DNA from: Onthophagus taurus
Lineage: Eukaryota; Arthropoda; Insecta; Coleoptera; Scarabaeidae
DNA length: 64,000 bases
Direction: 5' to 3'
NCBI RefSeq assembly: GCF_036711975.1
Contig: NC_091972.1
Span: 39,313,001-39,377,000 of the forward strand
Position numbers and translations under genes: made by a program. Below are positions 1,863 to 63,118 of this stretch, one piece after another. Each line of letters opens with the position of its first letter. Position 1 is the first letter of the stretch. The notes under the pieces are model-generated. The model made no database searches. It saw only the letters and a program-made list of their open reading frames with translations, and was not told where the DNA came from.

Positions 1863-2265
1863 ATTGTGAGGTACCGTTGGATTCGTATCGTTTTCATCTT
1901 TCTGAAGATACCATTATATACTAGGTGTTCCATTAAAAAAAACGAAGTTGATCCATTTTCCGGAAAAACTAAAAGTGATAGCAAAATTTTCCGTAAGAAA
2001 ATATTTGTGCTGATAAAATATAAAAACTGACGTTTTTTTGTTCATATTGATATCTCAATCTGTTTGGAGGTTAAGAAGGGGGGGGGGGGGGGTTACTTTA
2101 CGCTAGCACTGTATATATTTTCTATATATTCTGGATTAAGTGGAAGAGCAGTTGGTTAATAGCCAAACGGAACTTCGTCCAGAAAATAAGTCTATTTTCT
2201 AAGAATGTATTATTATTTCTTTTCCTTTTTTGCGACTTACTAATAAAGGCATTTATTATTATTAT
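1863..2265. other. Unassigned flank with G-run and probable LINE 3' tail
   Basis: No coding sequence seen. A run of G lies near 2079-2092. From roughly 2130 the sequence looks like a non-LTR retrotransposon 3' end: AATAAAGGCATTTATTATT followed by an ATT microsatellite that abuts the palindromic array. A similar (ATT)n tail ends the Jockey-like LINE at 10477. The LINE assignment is an inference from tail style only. Confidence 0.35.
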
Positions 2266-3045
2266 TCGGGTTTAGCCGTCCTTACAGACGTGTGGCTAAA
2301 CCCAAATGATTCTAGTTTTAGGTATAGTGTTAGGTCTACATAATAACAGTGCTAGTTTTAATTGTTATGTAATGCTAGACCTAAAACTAGAATCATTCGG
2401 TTTTAGCCGTCTTAAGAGACGTATGGCTAAATCCAAATGTTTCTAGTTCTTGGTCTAATGTTAGTTCTAGTGACAGTGCATGTGTAAAACTGGAACTAAC
2501 ACTATACCTTAAACTAGAATCATTTGGGTTTAGCCGTCTTTAGTGACGTGTGGCTAAACCCAAATAATTCTAGTTTTAGGTATAGTGTTAGGTCTACATA
2601 ATAACAGTGCTAGTTTTAATTGTTATGTAATGCTAGACTTAAAACTAGAATCATTCGGGTTTAGCCGTCTTAAGAGACGTATGGCTAAATCCAAATGTTT
2701 CTAGTTCTTGGTCTAATGTTAGTTCTAGTGACAATGCATGTGTAAAACTGGAACTAACACTATACCTTAAACTAGAATCATTCGGGTTTAGCCGTCTTTA
2801 GTGACGTGCGGCTAAACCCAAATGATTCTAGTTCTAGGTATAGTATTAGTTCTACATAATAACTGTGCTAGTGTAAAACTAGAACTAACACTAGACCTAG
2901 AACTATAAACATTCGGATTTAGCTGCACGTCTCTTAATCAGCTAAACCCGAATGATTTTAGTTCTAGGTCTAGTGTTAGTTCTAGTTTGAATTGTTATGC
3001 AGCGCTAGACTAAGCGCTAGATTGTTGTATATTTTTATTGAAGTA
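2266..3045. repeat. Strand-symmetric array of alternating inverted repeats (copy 1)
   Basis: About six hairpin cores of the form GGTTTAGCCG...CGGCTAAACC (near 2270, 2398, 2522, 2658, 2784 and 2922) alternate, every ~130 bases, with a second inverted repeat built from CTAGTTCTAGGTATAGTGTT and its complement. The array ends in an AGCGCTAGATTGTTGTATAT module that recurs at the ends of the arrays at 37870, 39690, 40190, 42300 and 42865. It lies downstream of the SLC9B-like exon on the minus strand, so probably in that gene's first intron. Same family as the arrays at 37760-44490. Confidence 0.85.
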
Positions 3046-3484
3046 GTTGAAAGGTTAAATATACGTATTAGAAAAGTACGTATATTAGATTATATAGCAG
3101 AACTAGAATATACAGATAATAAGTTGTGGTTAAGTTCATAACTTGTAAGTTGTTAAATATACATAGTTGTAGAAGAAAGAGGTGCTTTACTAACACCAAA
3201 AAAATTTAACAATTAGGATAACTTGTAGACATAAATAAGAACTTGTTAAAACTAGATATGTTAAGAAAGATAAAGTAACTACAGAACAAGATTGTGTGTA
3301 ATGGAATTATAATTAAAAATTAATTTTGTATACCAACGGAGAATTTGTATTATTAAGGGTATATTAACATTAAAATTTATGAAAAAATTCATATTGATGA
3401 CTTTGCAAAGTTTTGTTTGCTTAAGAATCGACTTAAAAATCGTTAAAAATAAGTTTAATAAAATATATTAATTAATTAACTTAC
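3046..3484. other. AT-rich presumed intron sequence
   Basis: No ORF, repeat or RNA gene recognised. On the minus strand it begins with the GTAAGT donor of the exon at 3485-3652, so it is most simply the start of that gene's first intron. Confidence 0.4.
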
Positions 3485-5009: not shown

Positions 5010-8000
5010 TAATGGTGGAACGGATATCCGGCAACTATCCGGTATCCGGCCTATCCGGCCATTTTATAAAATCTATGGAATTATCACCAATTATTAATTA
5101 AAGTGTCCTCTTTTTAATGCAACAAGCCGTTTTGAAAAATCACTTTCAGTTCTTGAGAAATAAATTTTTCAAATGATCGACAATTTTTTTGAATCTTGCA
5201 ATTTTCTCCAATTAAATTTTAATAATTCGTATAAAATCGATTTCTCGGAATAAGAGTATGCAAATTTTCCAAAATATTAATAAAAGTGTGCTCTTTCCAA
5301 TGAACCAACACGTTTTGAAAAATTACTTTTAGTTTTTGAGATAACAATATTTGAAGTTTTGATAAAACTGCCGATGTTGCAATAATTTTCATCGATAACT
5401 TTCAAAATTCGCTATAAAATTAATTTCTTGAAGGATCCTTGTGGAATTATCACCAATTATTAATTAAAGTGTCCTCTTTTTAATGCAACAAGCCGTTTTG
5501 AAAAATCACTTACAGTTCTTGAGAAATAAATTTTTCAAATGATCGAAAATTTTTTTGAATCTTGCAATTTTCTCCAATTAAATTTTAATAATTCGTATAA
5601 AATCGATTTCTCGGAATAAGAGTATGCAAATTTTCCAAAATATTAATAAAAGTGTGCTCTTTCCAATGAACCAACACGTTTTGAAAAATTACTTTTAGTT
5701 TTTGACATAACAATATTTGAAGTTTTGATAAAACTTTCGATGTTGCAATAATTTTCATCGATAACTTTCAAAATTCGCTATAAAATTAATTTCTTGAAGG
5801 ATCCTTGTGGAAATATCACCAATTATTAATTAAAGTGTCCTCTTTTTAATGCAACAAGCCGTTTTGAAAAATCACTTTCAGTTCTTGAGAAATACATTTT
5901 TCAAATGATCGAAAATTTTTTCGAATTTTGCTATTTTCTCCGATTAAATTTTAATAATTCGTATAAAATCGATTTCTCGGAATCAGAACATGAAAATTTT
6001 GCAAAATATTAATAAAAGTGTGCTCTGTCCAATGAACCAACACGTTTTGAAAAATTACTTTTAGTTTTTGAGATAACAATATTTGAAATTTTGATAAAAC
6101 TGTCGATGTTGCAATAATTTTCATCGATAACTTTCAAAATTCGCTATAAAATTAATTTCTTGAAGGATCCTTGTGGAATTATCACCAATTATTAATTAAA
6201 GTGTCCTCTTTTTAATGCAACAAGCCGTTTTGAAAAATCACTTTCAGTTCTTGAAAAATAAATTTTTCAAATGATCGACAATTTTTTTGAATCTTGCAAT
6301 TTTCGCCGATTAAATTTTAATATTTCGTATAAAATCGATTTCTCGGAATAAGAGTATGAAAATTTTCCAAAATATTAATAAAAGTGTGCTCTTTCCAATG
6401 AACCAACACGTTTTGAAAAATTACTTTTAGTTTTTGAGATAACAATATTTGAAGTTTTGATAAAACTGTCGATGTTGCAATAATTTTCATCGATAACTTT
6501 TAAAATTCGCTATAAAATTAATTTCTTGACGGATCCTTGTAGAATTATCACCAATTATTAGTTAAAGTGTCCTCTTTTTAATGCAACAAGCTGTTTTGAA
6601 AAATCACTTTCAGTTCTTGAGAAATAAATTTTTCAAACGATCGACAATTTTTTTGAATCTTGCATTTTTCTCCGATTAAATTTTAATAATTCGTATAAAA
6701 TCGATTTCTCGGAATCAGAACATGAAAATTTTGCAAAATATTAATAAAAGTGTGCTCTGTCCAATGAACCAACACGTTTTGAAAAATTACTTTTAGTTTT
6801 TGAGATAACAATATTTGAAATTTTGATAAAACTGTCGATGTTGCAATAATTTTCATCGATAACTTTCAAAATTCGCTATAAAATTAATTTCTTGAAGGAT
6901 CCTTGTGGAATTATCACCAATTATTAATTAAAGTGTCCTCTTTTTAATGCAACAAGCCGTTTTGAAAAATCACTTTCAGTTCTTGAAAAATAAATTTTTC
7001 AAATGATCGACAATTTTTTTGAATCTTGCAATTTTCGCCGATTAAATTTTAATATTTCGTATAAAATCGATTTCTCGGAATAAGAGTATGAAAATTTTCC
7101 AAAATATTAATAAAAGTGTGCTCTTTCCAATGAACCAACACGTTTTGAAAAATTACTTTTAGTTTTTGAGATAACAATATTTGAAGTTTTGATAAAACTG
7201 TCGATGTTGCAATAATTTTCATCGATAACTTTTAAAATTCGCTATAAAATTAATTTCTTGACGGATCCTTGTAGAATTATCACCAATTATTAGTTAAAGT
7301 GTCCTCTTTTTAATGCAACAAGCTGTTTTGAAAAATCACTTTCAGTTCTTGAGAAATAAATTTTTCAAACGATCGACAATTTTTTTGAATCTTGCATTTT
7401 TCTCCGATTAAATTTTAATAATTCGTATAAAATCGATTTCTCGAAATAAGAGTATGAAAATTTTCCAAAATATTAATAAAAGTGTGTTCTTTCCAATGAA
7501 CCAACACGTTTTGAAAAATTACTTTTAGTTTTTGAGATAACAATATTTGAAGTTTTGATAAAACTGTCGATGTTGCAATAATTTTCATCGATAACTTTTA
7601 AAATTCGCTATAAAATTAATTTCTTGAAGGATCCTTGTGGAATTATCACCAATTATTAATTAAAGTGTCCTCTTTTTAATGCAACAAGCCGTTTTGAAAA
7701 ATCACTTTCAGTTCTTGAGAAAAAAATTTTTCAAATGATCGACAATTTTTTCGAATTTTGCAATTTTCTCCGATTAAATTTTAATAATTCGTATAAAATC
7801 GATTTTTTGGAATAAGAGTATGAAAATTTTCCAAAATAGTAATAAAAGTGTGCTCTTTCCAATGAACCAACATGTTTTGAAAAATTACTTTTAGTTTTTG
7901 AGATAACAATATTTGAAGTTTTGATAAAACTTTCGATGTTGCAATAATTTTCATCGATAACTTTCAAAATTCACTATAAAATTAATTTCTTGAAGGAAAT

Positions 8001-36235: not shown

Positions 36236-36674
36236 AATTTTTTTTGAGAAAATTCATTAGTCTTATAAGTACACAAATGCATTTAGTTCAGTTAGTGATA
36301 TCAAGGATGTTTTCTTCGTATCTTATTAATTATTTAGGTTAGTACAAAAAAAGATAATTAATATATTTTTTTTAATTTTGAGATTATTTTTGCATTTCTA
36401 AGTCTACATTACAAAGCAGTTCACCTTTTTATTTGAAAAATAAAAATTCAGTACCATAAAATATTCACAAAAACACTCCTATTTCAAGATAAGCAAATAC
36501 TTTTAATCCAGAAGCAAATAATTCCGTTCATTAAATATTAAATAAGTATTAAGTCCGCAAAAAAAGATCTCCATTTAATTAATTACCATCGTTCAAGTTA
36601 AAATCTAACAATTTCAGGCTAGAAATAATCGTAGATGTGAAGAACTTCCGAAGGCTTTAATAAAATTAATCGTC
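36236..36674 (+). promoter_or_regulatory. 5' flank/UTR of the SLC46-like gene
   Basis: No ORF. A possible 3' splice site (CAATTTCAG) at about 36616 precedes the start codon by ~58 bases, so the translated exon may begin there after a 5' UTR intron. No TATA box can be assigned with confidence. Confidence 0.35.
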
Positions 36675-39600
36675 ATGGCTCTTGAAAGATCAAAAAGTAT
36701 CGAAGCCGATATTCATCAATTATCAGTAGCCGTTGGTGAAGGTATGCAACCCAATCAAGAAAAAGATGGTGATGAAGAAAATAAATTGAGTGTATTTGAA
36801 AAAGTGAGATTAATTTTTACCAATATAACGGTAGAACCAATTATGGTATGTTATATTTTACCAAGTGTGATGGCAAGTTTAACTATACAAAATTTGAACT
36901 TAGAGAAAGCTTGTAGAGTTAATTTACATTATAACGACACAATTTGTGATGCTTTAACATCAAGAAATTCATCTGGATATGATGTAACCCACGAACAAAC
37001 CGTACAAAAATTAGTTGCTTCGATGAACGCCTGGAAAAATATCATTCAAAGTTTATTACCATCGATTTTATTGATGTTTATTGGTTCATGGAGTGATCGA
37101 AACAACCGGCGAAAACCTTGCATAATCTTACCGGTAGTTGGAGAATTGATTTCTTGCATAGGATTCTTAATTTGCACTTACTTTTTTTATCAACTCTCCA
37201 TGGAATATTGCGCCCTATCAGAATCGGTTCCTCCATCATTAACGGGCGGATGGTTTTGTATGTACATGGGCGTTTTTAGTTACATCAGTTCGGTTTCGAC
37301 GAAAGAAATGAGAACGTTACGAATCGGCGCTGTAAGTCTTTTTTCAAACGCTTGTTTCACGATTGGAACGGCGCTAAGCGGATTTTTATATCGACAAATT
37401 GGGTTTTATGGAGTTTTCTTTTTGGCAGCGGGAATTTATACGATCGGGTTATTGTACGGTGGTTTTAGATTGAAAGAAATTAAAGTCGATGAGAATCAAG
37501 TTGATAATTTGGAAAAGAATGAATTAAATCGGGATGTGATTAAAGTTGAAAATGGGAAGAAAAAAAATTTTTTTGCAGACTTTTTCGATTTAAAACATAT
37601 TTCGGAAACGTTTAAGGTCGCTTTTAAAACTGGGAGTAAGAGTCGAAAGAAGAGAATTTGTGTAATTATGGTGTTGGTTATGGTTATTATTGGACCTTTA
37701 CATGGTATATATTTTTATTTCAATTTCAACAAAATTAATTAAACATATTGAATTAAAACTAAAATTAACACTAGACCTACTTCTAGAAACAATCGGGTTT
37801 TGCCGTCTTGAGAGACGTGCGACTAAACGTGAATGATTCTAGTTATTGGTCTAGTGTTAGTTGTACTTTTAGTTTAATAAAAATATACAACAATCTAGCG
37901 CTGTATAATAATTAAAATTAGAACCAACACTTAACCTAGAACTTGAATTTTTTTAACTCTAGGTCTAGTGTTAGCTCTAATTTTACACGATCACTAGCAT
38001 TAACACTATACCTAGAACTAAAATCATTTGGATTTAGCCGCACAACTCTCAAAACGGCTAAACCCGAATGGTTCTAGTTCTAGGCATAGTGTTAGTTCTA
38101 CTTTTACACTTGTACTGTCACTAGAACTAACACTAGAACTAAAATCATTTGGGTTTAGCCGCACGTCTATAAAGGCGGCTAAACCCGAATGATTCTAGTT
38201 CTAGTTTTACTCTAGCACTCTTTCTATGTAGAACTAACACTATACCTAGAACTAGAATCATTCGGGTTTAGCCGTACGTTTCTAAAGACGGCTAAACCAG
38301 AATGATTCTAGTTCTAGGTATAGTGTTAGTTTTACTCTAGCACTGTTTCTATGTAGAACTAACACTATACCTAGAACTAGAATCATTCGGGTTTAGCCGC
38401 ACGTCTCTAAAGACGGCTAAATCAGAATGATTCTAGTTCTAGTGTTAGTTCTAGTTTTACACTAGCACTGTTAAGGTGTAAAACTAACACTATACCTAGA
38501 ACTAGAATCATCTGGGTTTAGCCGCACGTCTCTAAAGACGGCTAAACCCGAATGATTCTAGTTCTAGGTATAATGTTAGTTCTAGTTTTACACTTGCACT
38601 GTCACTAGAATTAACATTCGGGTTTAGCCGCACGTCTATAAAGGCGGCTAAACCAGAATGATTCTAGTTCTAGTGTTAGTTCTTAGTTTTACTCTAGCAC
38701 TGTTTCTATGTAGAACTAACACTATACCTAGAACTAGAATCATTCGGGTTTAGCCGCACGTCTCTAAAGACGGCTAAATCAGAATGATTCTAGTTCTAGT
38801 GTTAGTTCTAGTTTTACACTAGCACTGTTAAGGTGTAAAACTAACACTATACCTAGAATTAGAATCATCTGGGTTTAGCCGCACGTCTTTAAAGACGGCT
38901 AAACCCGAATGATTCTAGTTCTAGGTATAATGTTAGTTCTAGTTTTACACTTGCACTGTCACTAGAACTAACATTCGGGTTTAGCCGCACGTCTATAAAG
39001 ACGGCTAAACCCGAATGATTCTAGTTCTAGTGTTAGTTCTAGTTGTACTCTAGCACTGTTTCTATGTAGAACTAACACTATACCTAGAACTAGAATCATT
39101 CGGGTTTAGCCGCACGTCTCTAAAGACGGCTAAATCAGAATGATTCTAGTTCTAGTGTTAGTTCTAGTTTTACACTAGCACTGTTAAGATGTAAAACTAA
39201 CACTATACGTAGAACTAGAATCATCTGGGTTTAGCCGCACGTCTCTAAAGACGACTAAACCCGAATAATTCTAGTTCTAGGTATAGTGTTAGTTCTAGTT
39301 TTAGATTTGCACTGTTACTAGAACTAACATTAGACCTAGAACTAAAATCCTTTGGGTTTAGCCGCACGTCTCTAAAGACGGCTAAACCTTAATGATTCTA
39401 GTTCTAGTGTTAGTTCTAGTTTTACACTAGCACTTTTACTATGTAGAACTAACACTATACCTAGAACTAGAATCATTTAGGTTTTGCCGCTCGTCTCTAA
39501 AGACGGCTAAACCAGAATGATTTTAGTTCTAGGTATAGTGTTAATTTTAGTTTTAGACTTGCACTGTTACTAGAACTAACATTAGACTTAGAACTAGAAT

Positions 39601-42600
39601 CATTTGAGTTTAGCCGCATGTCTCTACAGACAGCTAAACCCGAATGATTCTAGTTCAAGGTATAGTGTTAGTTCCACTTTTAGTTCAATAAAAATATACA
39701 ACAATCTAACGCTAAATAATAATTGGATCCTGTTATACATCACTTGGCTAAGCGACATTTTAACGTTTTTAGAGATTTTCGTGCTGTCTGGTAGGTAAAG
39801 GTGTAACTTATCTTAGAAAAAATGCAGAATACCGAAAGACCTAAAATACTATTTGTTTTAAAGGATAAAGCTAAGCGCCAATCATGTTATTCGATTTCAT
39901 CATACGTCTAAGAACCGACTTAGATCCGATTTTTATTGCACTAAAACTAGAACTAACACTAGACCTAGAACTAGAAAGTTTTGGGTTTAACCGTGCGTCT
40001 TCAGACATGGTATATATTAGACGCCCGGCTAAACGAGAAACTTTCTAGTTCTAGGTCTAGTATTAGTTCTAGTTTTACACTAGCATTAGAACTAACACAA
40101 GACCTAGAACTAGAATCATTCGGGTTTAGTCGTCTTGAGAGACGTGGGACTAGTTAGTTCTAGTGGCAGTGGTAGGTAGCTGTGTTGTATATTTTTATTG
40201 AACTAAAACTAGAACGAGAACTAGAAATATTCGGGATTACTCGTGAAAAAAACTTTCAGTTGCCAAGCTCAACTTTAATTTTATTATTATATTCGTAATC
40301 TTCATAAAAAATCCTTTAAAATGAGTCCAAACTCGACATATTTACCTTTAATATTAACGGAAATAAAATCACTTCCGGTTTGAAACGTCAACGTCAATGT
40401 TGACATATATGTCATCTTCCTTAAAAAGCCTTTAAAATGAGTCCAAAGATGACGCATTTATCTCAAAAAACAAAAAAGTTAGAATAAAAAACATTAAACC
40501 CGAAGTTAGCAACAATGAAAATAGCAATTTAATTTTTAAATTTTAATACCAACCTTAATTTATTTTATTATATTTCCGTTTTTGTGACAAATTTGAATAC
40601 ATTTTATAAAAATTAAGAATATGTCAAAATGACATTGACATTTCAAACCGGAAGTTGGTTATATCTCGAGTAATATTGGAATTAAACGTATCATGTTTGG
40701 ACTCATTTTAAAGGATTTTTTACGACGATTACAAATATGTCAAAATTGACGTTGACATTCTTAACCGGAAGTTGACCATAACTTCATGAATATTGAAGAT
40801 AAATATGTCGTGTTTGTACTCATTTTAAAGGATTTTTAATGAAGATTACAAATATGTCAAAATTGCGGTTGACATTTTAAACTTGAAGTTAGTTATCATA
40901 TAATAAAAGTTTTATAAGTGAAGTTAATCTAGTGTTAGTCACTTTTCCAAACTTTCTTTTTCTTTTTAACATGTTTTTTGGGTCATTTCACATTGATTAA
41001 TCATCGATTCTGGAAATTTTGCCAAGTTTCTTAATATTTCTTTTGTTAAAAAAGAGCGTTCTAAAATTTTAACCTGTAAACTTGTAACACTTCGTCCTTA
41101 ATTTCATTTTACAACTTTTTAAACTTTATTTTGTCAATTAGTAACTAATAATTTGATTGCGACTTTGATATGTGATCTTTTTTAACAAAAGAAAAAGAAA
41201 TAGTAAGAAACTTGTTTGTAAAATGGATAAGATGAGATGTTAATCTATTTGTAGAGTCTGTGAAGATGGCCAAGGGCCGAAACTGGTTAGATTTAAATTC
41301 TATATAAAATAAAAACCAGTTTAAAAGTACAAAATCAAACTCTAGATTATTTTCTTCAAAAACTTTTACACGAATCGTCATCATTTTGTCTTTAGTTTTA
41401 GTGGATAAATTTATGCCACGACTTACAGAAACATCCTGTATAATCGTAAAACATACCAAGCGGCTTCTGTGCTTGTGATAGCTGCCATCAGTGTTATGTG
41501 ATAAAAATGAACAGGCACCAAACAATTTTCAATAGTTTGAGCCTGTCTAATCTGAGAAGTCTTATATTTTTAGAGAGATGAAAACGAAAATCCCGTTTTT
41601 CTCAACAAGTGATATATAACGCGAATTCAATTAAAATTAGAAGAAGACGCACGACTAAACCCGCAACTTTCTAGTTCTAGGTCCAATGTTAGTTCTAGTT
41701 TTACACTTGCACTGTCACTAGAATTAACATTAGACCTAGAACTAGAATCATTTGGGTTTAGCCGCACGTCTCTAAAGACGACTAAACCCGAATGATTCTA
41801 GTTCTAGGTATAGTGTTAGTTCTAGTTTTAGATTTGCACTGTTACTAGAACTAACATTAGACCTAGAACTAGAATCCTTTAGGTTTAGCCGCACGTCTCT
41901 AAAGACAGCTAAACCTTAATGATTCTAGTTCTAGTGTTAGTTCTAGTTTTACACCAGCACTGTTACTATGTAGAACTAACACTATACCTAGAACTAGAAT
42001 CATTCGGGTTTAGCCGCAAGTCTCTAAAGACGGCTTCTAGTTTTACGCTTGCACTGTCACTAGAACTAATATTAGACCTAGAACCAGAATCATTCGGGTT
42101 TACCGCTCGTCTCTAAAGACGGCTAAACCCAAATGATTCTAGTTCTAGGTATAGTGTTAATTTTAGTTTTAGACTTGCACTGTTACTAGAACTAACATTA
42201 GATCTAGAACTAGAATCATTTGAGTTTAGACGCACATTTCTAAAGACTGCTAAACCCGAATGATTCTAGTTCAAGGTATAGTGTTAGTTCCACTTTTAGT
42301 TCAATAAAAATTTACAACAATCTAACGCTAAATAATAATTGGACCCCGTTATACATCACTTGGCTAAGCGACATTTTAACGTTTTTAGAGATCTTCGTGC
42401 TGTCTGGTAGGTAAAGGTGTAACGTATCTTAGAAAAAATGTAGAATACCGAAAGACCTAAAATACTATTTGTTTTAAAGGATAAAGCTAAGCGCCAATCA
42501 CGTTATTCGATTTTAAGCCCGATTTGCATCATACGTCTAAGAACCGACTTAGATCCGATTTTTATTGCACTAAAACTAGAACTAACACTAGACCTAGAAC

Positions 42601-45301
42601 TAGAAAGTTTTGGGTTTAGCCATGCGTCTTCAGACATTGTATATATTAGACGCGTGGCTAAACGAGAAACTTTCTAGTTCTAGGTCTAATGTTAGTTCTA
42701 GTTTTACACTAGCACTATCATTAGAACTAACACAAGACCTAGAACTAGAATCATTCGAGTTTAATCGTCTTGAGAGACGTGGGACTAAATCCGAATGTTT
42801 CTAGTTCTCGGTCTAGTGTTAGTTCTAGTGGCAGTGGTAGGTAGCGCTAGTTAACATAAGATATTACTATGTTGTATATTTTTATTGAACTAAAACTAGA
42901 ACGAGAACTAGAAACATTCGGGTTTACTCGTGAAAAAAACTTTCAGTTGCCAAGCTCAACTTTAATTTTATTATTATATTCGTAATCTTTATAAAATAAG
43001 CTTTAAAATGAGTCCAAACTTGACGCATTTATCTCAAAAAACCAAAAAGTTCGAACATTCAACTTTTAATTTTGACATTTGTCAACTTCATAAAAAATCC
43101 TTTAAAATGAGTCCAACTCGATATATTTACCTTTAATATTAACGGAAATAAAATCACTTCCGGTTTGAAACGTCAACGTCAATGTTGACATATATGTCAT
43201 CTTCCTTAAAAAGCCTTTAAAATGAGTCCAAAGATGACGCATTATTCTCAATAAACAAAAAAGTTAGAATAAGAAACATTAAACCCGAAGTTAGCAACAA
43301 TGAAGATAGCAATTTAATTTTTAAATTTTAATACCAACCTTAATTTTTAATTTTTTTTATTATATTTCCGTTTTTGTGACAAATTTTAACACATTTTATA
43401 AAAATTAAGAATATGTCAAAATGACATTGACATTTCAAACCGGAAGTTGCTTATATCTCGAGTAATATTGGAATTAAACGTATCATGTTTGAACTCATTT
43501 TAAAGGATTTTTTACGACGATTACAAATATGTCAAAATTGACGTTGACATTCTTAACCGGAAGTTGACCATAACTTCATTAATATTGAAGATAAATATGT
43601 CGTGTTTGTACTCATTTTAAAGGATTTGTAATGAAGATTACAAATATGTCAAAATTGAGGTTAACATTTTAAACCTGAAGTTAGTTATCATATAATAAAA
43701 GTTTTATAAGTGAAGTTAATCTAGTGTTAGTCACTTTTCCAAACTTTCTTTTTATTTTTAACGTGTTTTTTTGGATCATTTCACATTGATTAATCATCGA
43801 TTCTGGAAATTTTCCCAAGTTTCTTAATATTTCTTTTGTTAAAAAAGAGCGTTCTTAAATTTTAACCTGTAAACTTGTAACACTTCGTCCTTAATTTCAT
43901 TTTACATCTTTAATTTTGTAAATTAGTAACTAATAATTTGATTTTGACTTTGATATGTGATCTTTTTTAACAAAAGATAAAGAAATATTAAGAAACTTGT
44001 TTGTAAAATGGATAAAATGAGATGTTAATCTATTTGTAGAGTCTGTGTAGATGGCCAAGGGCCGAAACTGGTTAGATTTAAATTATATATAAAATAAAAA
44101 CCAGTTTAAAAGTACAAAATCGAACTCTAGATTATTTTCTTTACAAATTTTTACACGAATCGTCATCATTTTGTCTCTAGTTTTAGTGATTAAATTTATG
44201 CCACGATTTAAAGAAACTTCCTGTATAATCGTAAAACATACCAAGCGGCTTCTGTGCTTGTGATAGCTGCCATCAGTGTTCTGTGATAAAAATGAACAGG
44301 CACCAAACAATTTTCAATAGTTTGAGCCTGTCTATCCTGAGAAATGTTATATTTTTAGAGAGATGAAAACGAAAATCCCGTTTTTCTCAACAAGTGATGC
44401 ATAACGCGATTCATTTGGGTTTAGCCGCACGTCTCTAAAGACGGCTAAACCCAAATGTTTCTAGTTGTAAGTCTAGTGTTAGTCTTAGTGATAGTGTTTT
44501 AATTTTAGTACAAATAAGACCAGTCATGAAATCCTTCATTCTTATATTAATTAAACATTTTTAGGTGAATTTAACGTGATGTATCTTTTCGTACGATACA
44601 GATTCGGATGGGATGAAGTGGATTATGCTTTATACTCAACATTCAACATCATTTTCCACATGATTGGTAAACATTTTTAATCCAAAACAAATCTCATCTT
44701 TCAATTTAATTAATTTTAGGAACACTTTTTTCATTAACTTTCTTCTCAAAATTCTTAAAATTCGACGACGCACTTTTAGGGGTTATCTCAAGCATGAGTA
44801 AAGTAATTTCAGCCGTGGTTTATGCTTTCGCCCCGTCACCGTTTTATTTTTACCTCGGTGCTATTGCTGAAATGTTGAATGGAACGTCTTTTATTGCAAT
44901 GCGATCGATTACATCGAAATTAGTTCCACCCGAGGAACTAGGTAAACTAATTTTACATCAAAATTTTTTTTTAACCAGTATTAGATTGACATTATTGATT
45001 AACAGGGAAAATTAATTCGTTATTTGGAGTGTCGGAAGCTTTAATGCCATTGGTTTATGGACCGATGTATAGCTTGGTTTATCGAACCACAATTAAAATA
45101 TTTCCCGGATCTTTCTTGCTTTTAGGAGGACTTTTAACATTACCTGCAGTTTTTATTTTCTTGTAACAAAAAACATCACGATTTTTTTCGAATTCTTTCA
45201 ATATCCAAATTTTTTTTAGGTGGTTATACAAAGAACATAAACGGGATGAAATAGAAGAAGAATTAAATAAAAAACTATCAGAAAAATTACTTACTAAGTA
45301 A
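36675..45301 (+). CDS. MFS transporter, SLC46/proton-coupled folate transporter-like (five coding exons)
   Basis: Exons by splice consensus and phase: 36675-37704, 44565-44666, 44720-44941, 45006-45162 and 45220-45301; 530 residues, normal for SLC46. Expected to be a 12-helix plasma- or lysosomal-membrane transporter; the substrate cannot be read from sequence. A cytoplasmic N-terminus of ~45 residues leads to helix 1 (VEPIMVCYILPSVMASLTIQ), an extracellular loop with Cys and Asn-X-Ser/Thr sites, and then the MFS motif A GSWSDRNNRRKPCIILPVVG. A charged central loop (residues ~280-330) separates the halves. The second half is encoded by exons 2-5 (GEFNVMYLFVRYRFGWDEVD, SITSKLVPPEELGKINSLFG). 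The start is the first ATG of the open frame. The first intron, ~6.9 kb, carries the palindromic arrays and a ~2-kb duplication; the other introns are ~53-64 bases. No coding lesion is seen. Confidence 0.88.
37760..39720. repeat. Strand-symmetric array of alternating inverted repeats (copy 2, ~15 units)
   Basis: Hairpin A (TTCGGGTTTAGCCGCACGTC...GACGGCTAAACCCGAA, short AAA loop) recurs about every 105-125 bases from 37793 to 39610. It alternates with hairpin B (TTCTAGGTATAGTGTTAGTT...AACTAACACTATACCTAGAA, loop of ~30 bases). Loops vary more than stems. A ~360-bp three-unit block repeats (38390, 38750, 39110), showing recent unit-level amplification. It ends in the AATAAAAATATACAACAATC module at both sides (37876 and 39687). 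Lies wholly in the SLC46-like intron. Confidence 0.93.
39630..41630. repeat. ~2-kb intronic segment, tandemly duplicated (copy 1)
   Basis: Matches 42265-44402 in the same order: GGATCCTGTTATACATCACT, GTTTTAGAGATTTTCGTGCT-like sequence, the minor palindromic unit at ~39940-40150, AAAACTTTCAGTTGCCAAGC, a set of AAAATGAGTCCAAA...CATTT repeats, and a region with an open minus-strand frame of unknown nature (41145-41525). The two copies differ by point changes and small indels, about 2.6-2.8 kb apart. Confidence 0.88.
39935..40255. repeat. Strand-symmetric repeat unit with a different loop
   Basis: ACTAGAACTAACACTAGACC ... GTTTAACCGTGCGTCTTCAG, loop, TTAGACGCCCGGCTAAAC, then the complementary TTCTAGTTCTAGGTCTAG. 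The central loop contains TATATATT. A homologous unit occurs at 42565-42920. Confidence 0.85.
41640..42330. repeat. Strand-symmetric array (copy 3, ~6 units)
   Basis: Same hairpin A/B alternation as at 37760, with cores near 41755, 41880, 42005, 42095 and 42230. One unit near 42035 is truncated within hairpin A. Ends with the CAATAAAAATTTACAACAAT module at 42300. Confidence 0.9.
42265..44402. repeat. ~2-kb intronic segment, tandemly duplicated (copy 2)
   Basis: Partner of 39630-41630, with a ~120-base extra GAGTCCAAA-type repeat near 43010-43110. The minus-strand frame at 44083-44310 (MFGACSFLSQNTDGSYHKHR...) matches that at 41145-41525, but with many differences and no recognised domain. 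Confidence 0.88.
42560..42925. repeat. Strand-symmetric repeat unit (homologue of 39935)
   Basis: GTTTAGCCATGCGTCTTCAG ... TTAGACGCGTGGCTAAAC, plus adjacent TTCTAGTTCTAGGTCTAATG arms and a second core at 42760 (AATCGTCTTGAGAGACGTGG). Confidence 0.85.
44408..44490. repeat. Single hairpin A unit at the end of the intron
   Basis: TTTGGGTTTAGCCGCACGTC, loop, GACGGCTAAACCCAAA, then one CTAGTTGTAAGTCTAGTGTT arm. The next coding exon starts ~75 bases later. Confidence 0.85.
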
Positions 45302-46446: not shown

Positions 46447-48047
46447 GTTGAGCTACGAAAACCACGTAAGCGATACCCATGCTTAAAGTGGATATAGGTG
46501 TTAGTTCGATCAAAATCTGTCCTAGTGTGACAGACAACAATCCACTTAAGCGTCACTTGCATCTTTCTGAGTATTTGAAACTCATAATCGACATCAATGC
46601 TATATCGACCATTGTACGCATCATTGTGTTCATACAAGCAGTTCTACACGAGGATTAATCTAGATTAATCTGTACCTTCACATCCAGCTGTAAAAAGTGT
46701 GGAACACGAAAATTGTGCAGAAGATGCTGACGATGTCGCTTCAAATTCAACCTTTAGGCCTTCTCATGGTGGGTTTGGTAGTGATGCCATCGGAGTTGAT
46801 AATATAGAAGATAATAATACCGACGTGGCTAACCAATCGAATCCCTGTGGAGCGGAGGAACGCGAGCAACAAAGAAAAAAATGCAAAGGTAAAACCTGAA
46901 GGGTGGCAATGTTATAAAACTAAATTTAGAGGTATGAAGGGCGAAGCATATACTGGTGTTCAAAAGGACGAGGCAGAAAAGAAAAGCTACAGTGTGGACA
47001 AAACAGCCAGAAAAATGGGTCCCATTTTTAAAGTCTGTTTGTAAGGTTTTGGCAACACATGGATTGGAAGCAAAGGAAAGTGTATATAAGCAGTCTAGTT
47101 CACTTCAAAGTGAGAAAGCGAATCAGGAAATCTGCAAACGACCCACCACGAAAAAAAGGTACATTACACTACACTCAAAAAATCAATAATGAACCGCACC
47201 CAGTCTGCAAAACTTTGTTTCTATCAACATTTGGATTAAAAGAATGCACAGTAAGAAATAGGGTCATGAAGTGCAAGGATGGTATGCACCAAAATACAAT
47301 AATTACGCATAATAATAATAATAGTGATAATCCCAGAAATGTGAAAACACTTGAAAGAAAAGTGTTTGCTACTACTTTTTTAAATTGACTGCCAAAAATG
47401 CCATCACACTATTGCCAATCTTCCACATCTAAGAAATACTAGAGCCAATAATTGATTCCAAATTTGAACTGCATCGAATTTATCTTCAGACGTGTCAAAA
47501 TGAGTAGAGAGAAACATTGGCTAGAAAGCAGTTTCTTGAGATATTTAAAGACAAGAATCTGGGACTTTTCATCTGGGATATAAACACAAGTAGATGTTTA
47601 AACAACACTATGCACGGCATATGAAGTGTAAGGACGAAAAAGGGAGCAGAAGAAACAGGAAAAAGAGAAAGCAATTAGAGGAGAACAGTTAACATACACA
47701 ATGGATTTGCAGATCGTGAAGGTATCCCCAAAATTATGTGTGCATAATAATACCATTGAGATTAAAATGATGTTTTTTTTCTGAAAGTTGCAAATTTTGT
47801 ATTGCTTCACAATCAATATCAAAACCTCGTATCCGTCAACACTCCACACATTCTCTATAAGAGTAAACCACGTAAGCGACAATTTATTTTTTTCTATTAC
47901 ACGACAAAAAATCATTGTTAATTCATTCAGTATCACAAAAAAAACCATAATGTTCTTGAATTATTTAGCTAATTAACGTTATAAAACAGTTTTATGTGTC
48001 TCCTGTAAAATTATCTTTTGTCGCTTACGTGGTATTCGTAGTTCAAC
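46447..48047 (+). mobile_element. Decayed TIR transposon with 27-bp ends
   Basis: GTTGAGCTACGAAAACCACG then TAAGCGA at 46447, and the complement of the right end GTTGAACTACGAATACCACG then TAAGCGA at 48047. An additional ACCACGTAAGCGAC word lies at 47868. The interior carries fragments of a transposase-like protein in shifted frames. No clear target duplication was identified. Confidence 0.75.
46699..47780 (+). pseudogene. Insect transposase-like protein, decayed, family not named
   Basis: Pieces in order, in different frames: NSNPCGAEEREQQRKKCKG-like basic region, RNASNKEKNAKVKPEGWQCY, HPVCKTLFLSTFGLKECTVR, then LLPIFHI*EILEPI, ELHRIYLQTCQNE, TTLCTAYEV, EKAIRGEQLTYTMDLQIVKV and SPKLCVHNNTIE. 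This order (basic domain, VCK..FL.T.G., YC..S..K.YLEP, Y..YC, C.AYE, FT.DLQ.V, CPK...) is that of a common but loosely characterised insect transposon protein, presumably DDE-type. The YTMDLQ Asp would be the first catalytic residue. Many stops; inactive. Confidence 0.55.
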
Positions 48048-48219
48048 GACGCGACGATGTCTACTTTCAAGATAATTATTAAAAAGGAAACTAAAAAATT
48101 GTTGAAACTATTTATTGGAGATAAGAAATGAATTACATATATCTCAAATTAAAGTTAAAAGTATTTATTTATAAATAACAAACTTAATGAAAAAATAAGT
48201 TCCAAACATAATGAATAAA

Positions 48220-50620
48220 CACTCCCGTCATTTATTAACATGGTGATTATATCTTTGATATCGCTAAATATCTCTGAATATCCTGATATATCTTAACATA
48301 ATTTTTAACATATCTCAGCAATGTCGAAGCTCCCCTCAACATCTTTCCCACAATCTGTCAGCAGCACCTTTGATATCGTTAAATATCTTCCCTTATTTCT
48401 CATTAGCAATCTGATATCACTCAACATCAATCTGGTATCTATCAACATCGCCCTTGATGTCATCGAATTTTGTTTATATTTATTTATGTCAATAATTCCA
48501 GTTGTATTATCATTAAAATTTCTCACCACTACCCGCTTCCCTTGACATATTTCCCATCATCTTTTGGCATAGCCATTGACATAAATTGATATTTTTCCGG
48601 CTTCCGTTAACATCGTATATAACATTAAAATCATCAATGATAAATGTCGACATAATCCGTAGCATTTCTCAATACTGTCCACTTTTTTCTTAATCTTCTA
48701 CCAAATAATCTAATATTTGATAAAGTAAAATATTGTCACTGGTCTTCTTTAATATTGACTGTGAAATCCAAATCGTTTGATGATGTATCTCAACATCGTC
48801 TCTGATATTTTTCAACATCTTCTGTGGTAGAATCTTTGGCATATTTTTGCACAGCCATAGAAAAAGCAACACATTCTGGTATATTTCAATACTATTCTAG
48901 TCCCTCTCAACATCTTCCTCATAATTTACCAATATCTTCTTTGATATCTCTAAATATTATCCCTCGATCTCATTTTTGATATCTTCCACCATTATTTCTA
49001 ACATCTTTCACCATCTCCGCCGATCTTTCACAGTGTAATCTACGGAATATCTTACAACATAATCTCTGATATAACTCAATACTTCGACCTTCGATCTTTC
49101 CCATCATCACGCCATCAACAATGTCGTCCAAAAAGTTGTAGGTATCAATATCGTTTCGGTCACATCTTACATATCGTACATAATTTTTAAGATTTTTCAG
49201 TAGTCCTACTGTTCTAACCTGTCTTAAATTCTATAATCTGATGTCACTGGCTTTCTTCAACATTTCAATACAATCCCTAATTTCTCACACTGTTCTTAGC
49301 TATTTCTAAACATCGTCTCTAGTGTCTACCAATATCTTCCCTGATATCTTCAAATACCGTTCCTGATATCCTCCATCAGTGTCCATGATGATCCTTAACG
49401 TAATCTATTCTTAATAGCTTCTTTGACACTTCTCAAAACGATTTCTGATATCTTTCAAAATCATTCCTGATATTTCTTAACATCGCTCCTAATATCACTT
49501 TCGTTGAACTTCCACAATGTAATTAATAGCATCACTTACACTATCTTTGATATCTGCCAACATATTCCCTTGAATATCTCAACATTATCTTAGTCTTCTT
49601 CAATATCTTCTAACAACACCGCTACACATTGTTACTGATACCTAATTCTCAACGACAATCTCTATAACATTCCAAATATATCTTAATACAGTCTCTAAAA
49701 TCCTGAAATATTTTCCTTATCAATTCTGAATATTATCTATGTCAATAAAATCGTTCCTCATATATCATAACATAATCCCAAAGATCTCTCAACAATATGT
49801 GGCTTCATGTAATAATATTTCCCATCATCTATCAACGTTATTATTATCAACATCATCTCTGATATCTCATAATATCGTAACATCCAACAACGTCGTCGTT
49901 CTTAAGCGGGGGTGTCATCCCCCATTTTTTTCAAATGGGAAGGTTGGTCAAGTGCTACATCATTTTATAGATCTTGTTTTTATTGATACAACACAAAAAA
50001 TTGTTATTTAGAACGATTATTTTCGTCACCTATCAATTTTCACTAAACTTAAAAATATTTCTAATAAGAAGAATTAAAACAGAAACATGTTATTCATTGA
50101 AAAAAGAAGAAATTCTTAACCCTGTATATAATCTATCACACCCCTTTACATATCTGATAGTTTCTTTCATCATGAATCAACACTGGTATTGCTATTGCAG
50201 ATCTTCTGATTGATATCGCTGATCTTCGGATATCTTTCATCATCGACACTAACTTTTCAAATTAGCTTCGCAAACACTCTGCTTCCCAACTAAACATAAC
50301 GATGACTCAGGATAACTTTTGGTATCTCATCTTAACATTTCTCAACAATATAAATACTCAACAATACATATCTCAATAATATCTTGGCTTCTTTTGATAA
50401 CCTCTTCATCATCTATTACCGTCGTTCGCGATATTGCAGATATCTTTTGTTACCAAGATAACTCTACAAACGTCAACTCTGTTATCTCTCAACATAGTCC
50501 TTGATATTTCTCAACATTTCTCCAAATAATCCATCAAGATTGTTTTTGCTATTTTTTAACATTATTTCTCACATCGCGCAACATCGTCCAAGAAATCGCC
50601 CTAATTTTTGTTCTCGGTAA
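48220..50620. repeat. Degenerate ~22-bp minisatellite (TCTTTGATATCTCTCAACAT)
   Basis: For ~2.4 kb, words such as CTGATATCTTTCAACATC, GATATCTCTCAACATTATC and CATCTCTGATATC recur at roughly 20-25-base spacing with many substitutions and phase shifts. At ~49905-50130 it is interrupted by non-repetitive sequence (CTTAAGCGGGGGTGTCATCC...). No coding gene is supported; the short open frames are by-products. Confidence 0.75.
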
Positions 50621-51216: not shown

Positions 51217-58864
<7,648 letters not shown>

Positions 58865-60290: not shown

Positions 60291-63118
60291 AGACGATAGC
60301 AACAAACCGCCCAGCAACAAACTTTTTCCTTTATATTTTCACCTACTTCTAGGGCCCATATCTTCGTTATCTAGAAACATAGCGAAAAACTAAGCACACG
60401 GTTGGAAAGCTTGGTCAAAATTACCAAATTTCACGGCCTTGTGCAGCCGTTACCAGACGGAAATTCAATAAATGGTTTACATATTCTGAAAGAGCTGATC
60501 TTGGACTATCTTATTCCGATTTTCGTCCGTCAATATCTGTCGGCGTCTGTCAAGAAAACGCTTCTGAAAAGGAGCCTACAGTTGGCAACAAACTTTACTT
60601 TTGTATTTCCATCTATGTACTTTTCGGACGGATATCTTTGTTATTTATAACGCTAGCGAAAAACTAAGCACACGGTTGGAAAGCTTGGTCGTTTTTCTAT
60701 CTTAAACCGATATGTTGATAATGAGTGCAAGAAAAAATAAGAAACGTCGCGCTGCCAGAAATTTTTGCCGCGGCTAAACCACGCTTGGGTCAATAACTCT
60801 CTTATATGACGGGGAGAAAACTCCTAAACTATGTTCATCTTATGGGTAATTTTCTGCTCTTTTCATCGGTATATAACACATCTCCATCACACGCATCTGA
60901 AAAAAGCCCCACCGATGAGAACACGCATATATTTCTTGCACTAATAACTTTCCTATTTGACGGGGAAAAACTCTACCTACAACTATATTCAGCTTATGGG
61001 AAATCTCCTGCTCTTTCCAACGATGTGTGACATACCATGATCACACGTTTGCACAATCCTTTTCTCTAACTATGAACTACCTAAACCACGAATTTTTGCC
61101 GCGGCTAAACCACGCTTAGGTCAATAACTCTCTTGTATGACCAGGAGAACATTCTAGAACTAAATTCATCTTATGGGAAATTTTCTGCTGTTTCCAACGG
61201 TGTGTGACGCACTTCGCTTACGCGTTTGCATACGCGTTTTTTAATTGATGAACTGAGTTATAAACCATCAAAACACAATTCAACAATTCGAGTCTAAAAT
61301 CGCTCAAATTCTTCCAGATTCTGATAAAATAGGTGTAACATGTAATAATCTTTCTGTTTTGAACAGTTTAACATGTTTCTAAACGTAAAACTAAAACTAG
61401 AACTAAAGCTAGAACTAAAGCTAGAACTAAAACTAGAACTAAAACTAGAACTAAAACTAGAACTAAAACTAGAACTAAAACTAGAACTAGAACTAAAACT
61501 AGAACTAAAACTAGAACTAAAACTAGAACTAAAACTAGAACTAAAACTAGAACTAACACTAGCACTATCACTACAACTAACACTAGACCTAGAACTAGAA
61601 ACTTTCGGGTTCCAACTAGTTTTCTGAAGAAGGTTGCGACATGGCACCCGAAACGTCAAACATTTGTTCAAAAAACGTACGGCTCAACCCGAAAGTTTCT
61701 AGTTCTAGGTCTAGTGTTAGTTGTAGTGATAGTGCTAGTGTTAGTTTTAGTTTTATTAACACCGGCCGTGAAAGCCTTCGTACTTTTAAACGGTTTTAAA
61801 TAAATTAAGAGTGAATGAAAAATTATCTGTGAAAATTAACTTTGTTCCAATTTTTCGTTCATCAAATAAGAAAGTTAGGGTAAGAAGTGATTGCGATCTG
61901 CTACCTGTAGGTTGTCTTTCAGGTGCGTTTCTTTTACAGACGCCGGCAGATACTGACGGCGTCTGTAAATGAAAACTCGAAATAAGACAGGCCAAGAGTA
62001 GTTCTTTTCGAATATGTAAACCATTTGTTGAATTTCCTTCCGATAACGGCTGCACAAGGCCTTAAAGTGGGGCAATTTTGAGGTGAATTAAATGAAAAGA
62101 CCAAACTTTCCAACCGCGTTATTAGTTTTTCGCTATTTTTCTAGATAACGAAAATATTGGACCAAAAAGTAGACGGAAATACAAGGGGAAAGTTTGTTGC
62201 TGGGCTGAAAAACGATTGTGCAAACGTGTAATTGAGATGTGTTATACACCGTTGAAAAGAGCAGAAAATTTCCCATAAGATGAATATAGTTCTAGAGTTT
62301 TTCCCTGTCATATAAGAGAGTTATTGACCCAAGCAGGAGATTTCCCATAAGCTGAATATAGTTGTAGGTAGAGTTTTTCCCCGTCAAATAGGAAAGTTAT
62401 TAGTGCAAGAAATATATGCGTGTTCTCATCGGTGGGGCTTTTTTCAGATGCGTGTGATGGAGATGTGTTATATACCGATGAAAAGAGCAGAAAATTTCCC
62501 ATAAGATGAACATAGTTTAGGAGTTTTCTCCCCGTCATATAAGAGAGTTATTGACCCAAGCGTGGTTTAGCCGCGACAAAAATTCGTGGCAGCGCGACGT
62601 TACTTATTTTTTCTTGCACTCATTATCAACATATCGGGTTTAAGATAGAAAAACGACCAACCTTTCCAACCGTGTGCTTAGTTTTTCGCTAGCGTTATAA
62701 GTAACAAAGATATCCGTCCGAAAAGTAGATGGAAATACAAAGGTAAAGTTTGTTGCCAACTGTAGGCTCTTTTTCAGGAGCGTTTTTTTTCAGACGCCGA
62801 CAGATATTGACGGACGATAACTCGGAATAAGATAGTCCAAGGTCAACTCTTTCCGAATATGTAAACCATTTACTGAATTTCCGTCTGGTAACGGTTGCAC
62901 AAGGCCGTGAAATTTGGTAATTTTGAGGTAAATTGAATGCAGCGCGATGTTTTTTATTTTTTCTTGCTTTTATTATCAACATATCGGCGGACGAAAACTC
63001 GGTTTAAGGTAGAGAAAAGACCAAGCTTTCCAACCGTGTGCTTAGTTTTTCGCTATCTTTCTATATAACGAAGATATGGGCCTTAGAAGTAGGTGGAAAT
63101 ATAAAGGAAAAAGTTTGT
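60290..63118. mobile_element. Large palindromic (foldback-like) element
   Basis: Left arm from 60290 (AACAAACTTTTTCCTTTATA, CACCTACTTCTAGGGCCCAT, AAACTAAGCACACGGTTGGA, GGCCTTGTGCAGCCGTTACC, TTATGGGAAATCTCCTGCTC). The right arm reads the same blocks inverted up to ~63118. Blocks within an arm are duplicated (the CACACGGTTGGAAAGCTTGG block at 60399 and 60671; GTCAATAACTCTCTT.TATGA at 60790 and 61120), so the arms are themselves repeat arrays. The centre (61385-61765) is a smaller palindrome. No intact gene; short open frames are arm sequence. Confidence 0.8.
61385..61765. repeat. Palindrome with a 12-bp minisatellite arm
   Basis: ACTAGAACTAAA repeats ~14 times (61385-61555), followed by CACTAGCACTATCACTACAA, then CCTAGAACTAGAAACTTTCG. 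A unique loop (61605-61680) contains GAAGAAGGTTGCGACATGGC and CCGAAACGTCAAACATT. Then come the inverted arms CGAAAGTTTCTAGTTCTAGG and GTGATAGTGCTAGTGTTAGT. The arms use the same CTAGAACTAACACTAGACC vocabulary as the arrays at 37760 but with a different loop. Confidence 0.85.

Follow-up and report, generated by a model that had tools for sequence, protein, structure and literature searches.

Satellite-like repeats carried inside small DNA transposons are exemplified by miDNA4, a Xenopus MITE of the Tc1/mariner type that contains a satellite (Scalvenzi and Pollet, summarized in the review PMC12628747). The summary given there portrays a nonautonomous DNA transposon with internal tandem repeats that differ in copy number and can yield arrays lacking the transposon ends, much like the arrangement we propose here for a repeat family of the beetle Onthophagus taurus, but the unit in our case is palindromic, its interchangeable spacers lie in both orientations, and there are several carrier ends. 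Tandem repeats inside a nonautonomous transposon also seed satellite-like arrays in Tetris/TIR-220 of Drosophila virilis; as described for that element, however, the repeats sit within long TIRs and the target duplications measure 8 to 10 bp (PMC4079207), whereas the TIRs found here are short and follow TA and the arrays are internal. A further parallel is with the satellite-bearing Helentrons of Crassostrea, described as nonautonomous elements that likewise disperse short satellite-like arrays but differ in carrier type (PMC7492417).

Other comparisons concern the inverted organization of the arrays. The dyad-symmetry satellites of Tribolium madens are, in the published account, built of inverted subunits at several scales, as are ours, but their arrays sit within megabase (peri)centromeric regions and are mostly made of two subarrays (PMC13081366), whereas the arrays considered here are dispersed and short and change orientation frequently. 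Template switching at inverted repeats in yeast is reported both to invert spacers and to homogenize arms (PMC8604942), and the segment between inverted arms occurs in both orientations there as it does here; the yeast cases, as reported, are small single events in genes, whereas here segments of 14 to ~58 bp are involved along arrays and arm homogenization is very weak. Small inversions of 5 to 50 bp between inverted repeats of 11 to 24 bp have been described in chloroplasts (Kim and Lee, cited in PMC12928735), where a short segment between inverted repeats flips in a similar way, but at isolated organelle sites, as that source presents them, rather than in a dispersed nuclear array. Our search of the open-licence literature, mostly of titles, found no precedent for palindromic units that adjoin TA-flanked transposon ends and are joined by interchangeable spacers of scrambled orientation, and the letters of the module described below appeared in no relevant paper that this literature search returned. 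We think it rather probable that the arrays are a palindromic satellite borne by several small, TA-flanked, MITE-like transposons with CAGT ends, and that tandem duplication has lengthened them and inversion has scrambled them.

Palindromic unit and arrays in the window

The repeated unit, P, is an imperfect palindrome of ~110 bp, in the order B arm, A stem, 14-base loop, A stem, B arm. Asymmetric spacers join the units: S (~20 to 25 bp), L1 (40 bp, beginning with the module AATAAAAATATACAACAATC), and L2 (58 bp, with its first bases in common with L1). We followed these elements in the window, meaning the whole 64,000-nucleotide stretch of DNA that was analyzed, and in 40 loci around exact L1 copies on contig C1, a sample that is biased toward L1-bearing arrays and drawn from one contig; a locus picked for its paired TIR1 ends (L053, see below) and four transposase loci were fetched in addition. 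Across the window and the 40 loci, the gap between palindromes holds S, L1, L2, or nothing, in either orientation. An earlier note on this DNA had taken the L1 module to mark array borders; it does occur at borders, but it is also an internal spacer and lies either way round. The same note held the array to be palindromic in every register, which does not hold given the asymmetry of S, L1, and L2 and the behavior of the arms: arm direction alternates in 396 of 453 adjoining arm pairs (window plus 40 loci), and the other 57, 8 of which sit in a variant at 61 kb, break the pattern, so that we rejected strict arm alternation.

Between 37757 and 44490 in the window, inverted repeats A (as a hairpin) and B (as arms) alternate, and 26 P cores are annotated between 37.7 and 44.5 kb. 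The alternation first reported for a single array does run through 37757 to 39724 and then through shorter arrays up to 44490, but these make up at least five stretches, partly within a ~2.7-kb duplicated block of other DNA, rather than one continuous array. The main array (37757 to 39724, from annotation and TRF) consists of P units with S spacers and an L1 module at its end; TRF reports a period of 357 with 4.6 copies and 88% matches over 38001 to 39682, and the window array thus has the head-to-tail tandem units of a satellite, whereas the other loci are of mixed orientation. Plus-strand L1 modules lie at 37876 to 37895 and, at the main array's right edge, at 39687 to 39706. Beyond it come a short array of P units and an S spacer at 39945 to 40244, in which the start shared by L1 and L2 reads on the minus strand from 40199; an array of P units with S spacers at 41645 to 42340, whose terminal L1 module at 42303 has one mismatch; another short array at 42574 to 42931, partly a duplicate of that at 39945 to 40244, with an L2 module on the minus strand from 42886; and a lone P unit at the right end (44410 to 44490). 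The duplication (39414 to 44413, plus strand) carries arrays together with other repeats, and its copies are 94.5% identical between 40265 to 41629 and 43047 to 44413 and 91.8% identical between 39414 to 40152 and 42035 to 42787. Tandem repeats of 117 bp with CCGGAAGTTGACC are also present in the duplicated block, at 40618 to 40880 and 43410 to 43682 (2.3 copies each).

A second array of the same family, already recognized near 2266, occupies 2264 to 3039 on the minus strand, with L1 at its right end and six P cores annotated at 2.2 to 3.1 kb. Next to it is a flank, M2 (3040 to 3096, minus strand), that is common to arrays in L012 and L023 (a cluster of 3) and whose end recurs in L014, L015, and L036. 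The variant that had been placed near 61385 belongs to the family as well (61389 to 61755), but it is a single palindrome in which the left B arm is expanded as 12-bp repeats (18.2 copies) and the loop is different DNA. Elsewhere the window contains a tandem array of 366-bp units at 5076 to 7998 (8 copies at 96%, or 16 copies of 183-bp subunits at 69%), a strong GC skew of −0.377 in one 2-kb bin (48001 to 50000), and a 15-bp tandem repeat, AATTCGGGAAATATA, at 52121 to 52281 (10.7 copies).

The arrays at 37757 to 44490 probably lie within an intron of a folate-transporter-like gene. The upstream exon (36609 to 37712, plus strand, exon ends approximate) is an MFS open frame (Pfam MFS_1, E = 1.9e-14) resembling proton-coupled folate transporters, with the transporter 7bc6_A as its sole PDB match at threshold (E = 3.8e-07). 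The intron is no more than probable because the downstream exon, near 44.57 kb, is a candidate picked out by eye and no significant Pfam match was obtained for the open frame at 44710 to 45015.

Genome-wide abundance and transposon ends beside the arrays

Searches of the genome (290.8 Mb, 33 contigs) returned 20,106 exact copies (9999 + 10107) of the 11-base stem core GGGTTTAGCCG, against 38 (19 + 19) for the reversed control, and 606 exact copies (296 + 310) of the end module, against none for its reversed control. A search for telomere-type repeats was uninformative, with 2 overlapping matches against 10 for the reversed control. The palindrome family is dispersed genome-wide in thousands of copies, and its borders recur: 60 of 155 array flanks group into 11 recurrent clusters, the largest with 16, 12, and 11 members, and the remaining 95 are unclustered. 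Hairpin satellite, one of the identities first offered for the arrays, describes them well, with the qualification that the satellite is dispersed and transposon-linked and that its recurrent borders are in other loci.

The three largest flank clusters contain DNA transposon ends, which start with CAGT after TA. Such CAGT ends and a TA target are features of pogo and Tc1 elements. In one of these clusters, TIR1 (CAGTAAAACCTCGATATAACGG, with AATACGGGGAA and GTGTCCGTTATAG often coming after it) groups with the left ends of TIR2 (CAGTGAATTTCACTTAA); another holds M4, and another the right ends of TIR2 (CCGGGAATTTCATATAACTCGC). M4 terminates in L031 and L037 in an oppositely facing TIR1, and TIR1 is nested within TIR2 in L009, L016, L030, and L046. 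Exact copies of TIR1 number 108 + 107 genome-wide (control, 0), and in the fetched loci 23 of 24 TIR1 matches are directly preceded by TA, as at a TA target site. TIR1, TIR2, or M4 matches were found in 34 of 41 sequences (the window plus 40 loci), a count that is only descriptive because some of these loci also went into building the queries, and the window has no match to any of these queries, leaving its own arrays without recognized transposon ends. Paired inward-facing ends surround arrays in 6 of the 40 loci (L009, L010, L018, L030, L034, and L046). In L053, a TIR1 pair 4.5 kb apart surrounds palindrome cores along with copies of L1 and other inserted DNA; TA lies on the left and CA on the right (plus strand, one copy), and the longest listed open frame of this single copy has 141 aa. 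Similar blocks of other repeated DNA were seen by eye inside the same TIR1 element, at ~2040 to 2700 and 3360 to 4200 of L053.

The association of these ends with the arrays exceeds chance. Of the 40 exact TIR1 copies on C1 up to 31.27 Mb, 12 have one of the 100 exact L1 copies within 2 kb; the mean under circular shifts is 0.47, with 0 of 10,000 reaching 12, and local jitter of 20 to 200 kb gives a mean of 0.68 and a maximum of 5. Transposase controls over the same region were seldom this close to L1 (DDE_1, 0/13; DDE_3, 1/18). All 12 of the close TIR1 copies face inward, and the short inward-facing TIRs of a Tc1/mariner/pogo-type MITE are thus present here and in L053, but not around the window arrays. 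The 12 are not all independent, since three of them have an identical 56-bp spacing from L1 and are probably copies of one composite. A junction of the TIR1 end with L1 at 56 bp occurs in L009, L016, L030, and L046, with an outer flank common to all four, and these junctions may descend from one composite.

The best-surviving alternative is that the arrays are a dispersed satellite of the ordinary kind, spread through recombination or repair, and that the transposon links are secondary, the arrays serving as landing sites or holding nested transposons. The 28 exact TIR1 copies on C1 up to 31.27 Mb that have no exact L1 within 2 kb, the majority of flanks that do not cluster, and the window arrays without a recognized TIR are all consistent with this, but the uniform inward orientation of the close TIR1 copies, their number relative to the shifted expectation, and the recurrence of the 56-bp junction (allowing that it may be one composite) argue against it, and we regard it as unlikely. 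In the transposon-borne satellite that we prefer, a transposase acting in trans would disperse the carriers, the arrays would lengthen by tandem duplication and unequal exchange, and decay of the carrier ends would allow arrays to persist without carriers.

Among the matches listed, neither DDE_1 nor DDE_3 led to a transposase partner with the same ends. On C1 to C3, 0 of 100 listed TIR1 copies lie within 6 kb of the 64 listed DDE_1 matches (150 of 1691 candidates scored), the four fetched DDE_1 loci have no TIR1, and, among the DDE_3 matches listed for C1 up to 31.27 Mb, the one nearest to a TIR1 is 14 kb away. We also observed that 17 of 150 DDE_3 matches listed, on several contigs, have the same score of 72.7 bits and that 15 of these 17 have a 363-aa open frame, which suggests a putative, recently expanded Tc1-type family; its two members on C1 are >10 kb from any exact TIR1.

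Orientation of cores and spacers

Cores and spacers occur in both orientations along the arrays. Consecutive cores have the same orientation in 80 cases and the opposite orientation in 35 (59 and 34 without the window), the corresponding counts for consecutive S spacers being 46 and 13 (26 and 13 without the window), and the spacers in the window and the 40 loci are divided between the plus and minus strands as 71/49 for S, 70/47 for L1, and 7/22 for L2. Because core calls in the loci depend on a near-palindromic 34-nt query, we also counted exact core-then-S patterns genome-wide and found 174 in the same sense and 54 in the opposite sense, with no match for the reversed controls; on C1 to C6, for which both sets of matches are complete, the first pattern occupies 93 places in 49 10-kb clusters and the second 33 places in 27, with 8 overlapping pairs. 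In 6 of 37 loci, a loop allele coexists with its exact reverse complement. Orientation triples did not separate isolated flips from block inversions. Plus-strand loop allele counts (21/15) were dropped as evidence of inversion, since the loci lie either way round.

Core orientation could in principle reflect separate deletions, mirrored on the two sides of a formerly perfect palindrome, rather than inversion, as might be suspected from two core forms that are distinguished by the side on which a few bases are missing and from the nearly symmetric core (Ps) that is also found. The loci that pair a loop allele with its exact reverse complement do so with further substitutions included, however, and the asymmetric S, L1, and L2 lie both ways round, which deletion cannot produce; we therefore consider mirrored deletions improbable. 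Inversion between the arms, whether by polymerase template switching or by inverted-repeat recombination, would flip loops and spacers alike in the transposon-borne satellite that we favor.

Conservation of stems, loops, and arms

The arrays can fold, as self-matching and folding checks confirmed: over 1.67 kb, the main array and its own reverse complement agree at 74%, the folding energy of a 381-nt piece is −109.5 kcal/mol, whereas 100 shuffles average −33.9 (z = −19.1), and an 86-nt piece also folds below its shuffled versions (z = −9.8). Stems are better conserved than loops, as the earlier note had stated, but the difference is modest. Mean diversity over 178 near-full units is 0.134 in the A stem, 0.131 in the B arms, and 0.201 in the loop (bootstrap difference between loop and A stem, 0.039 to 0.098), and it narrows to 0.114 for the stem versus 0.137 for the loop once the two commonest polymorphic columns of each are removed; the 19 near-full units of the 37.7- to 44.5-kb stretch give 0.157, 0.105, and 0.186 for A stem, B arms, and loop, respectively. 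Compensatory stem changes, which had also been anticipated, are weakly represented, in that 7834 mirrored cells contain 1046 one-sided changes and 128 two-sided changes (68 of them Watson-Crick), compared with 46 to 65 two-sided and 12 to 21 Watson-Crick changes when the arms are slid by 1 to 3 columns. The majority bases of columns 32 and 79 are unpaired, which adds to both the one-sided and the two-sided classes.

The two arms of a unit show little sign of having been homogenized. Divergence between a unit's own arms is 0.138, against 0.145 ± 0.002 for arms shuffled within the same locus (1 of 500 shuffles as low), and arms facing each other across a spacer are no more alike than shuffled ones (354 of 500 shuffles as low). 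Minor-allele frequencies at mirrored positions of the arms are correlated (rho = 0.52, versus 0.04 to 0.19 when slid), so both arms draw on one variant pool, though variants are weakly linked within a unit; mutual information computed from a single unit of each locus was too noisy to be informative. Among close unit pairs, the match between arms is crosswise, not parallel, in 10 of the 63 pairs within a locus and in 95 of the 386 between loci. These results fit exchange or inversion between arms, with arm homogenization leaving only a trace. Recombination between arms is still a candidate process, since spacer inversion is strong and arm homogenization weak here.

A further reading is that selection on the fold, or copying through it, is the main force on these sequences, with the hairpins kept, for example, as a source of double-stranded small RNA or as a protein site. 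The lower diversity of the stem than of the loop, the excess of two-sided changes over the slid comparisons, and the slight likeness of a unit's own arms point in this direction, but one-sided changes far outnumber two-sided ones, the gap between stem and loop shrinks without the commonest columns, arms are not alike across spacers, and Rfam has no match at the gathering threshold in 37700 to 44600, so that we hold this explanation to be very doubtful. The transposon-borne satellite requires no function of the fold.

Foldback (FB) elements have long TIRs made of tandem repeats and target duplications of ~7 to 10 bp. That the arrays are such termini and move as one unit, in the sense of Drosophila FB, is very unlikely: although the arrays match their own reverse complement, the L1 start occurs on both strands, and Tetris, as described, does have tandem repeats in its TIRs (PMC4079207), the TIRs found here are short, begin with CAGT, and nearly always follow TA, in contrast to the longer Tetris duplications, and the repeats are internal and of mixed orientation rather than forming one tract at each end.

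Implications

Transposon-borne satellites are already known, but this one provides inverted repeats by the thousand, with asymmetric markers separating their arms. Such a system can tell spacer inversion, which is common here, from arm homogenization, which is almost absent here. We tentatively raise a stronger possibility, one that we consider unlikely, that each array is an ongoing germ-line flip-flop in which the cores and spacers between inverted arms invert repeatedly by template switching. If this were true, the orientation strings of the arrays would differ among individuals and would serve as a rapid natural record of replication errors driven by hairpins.
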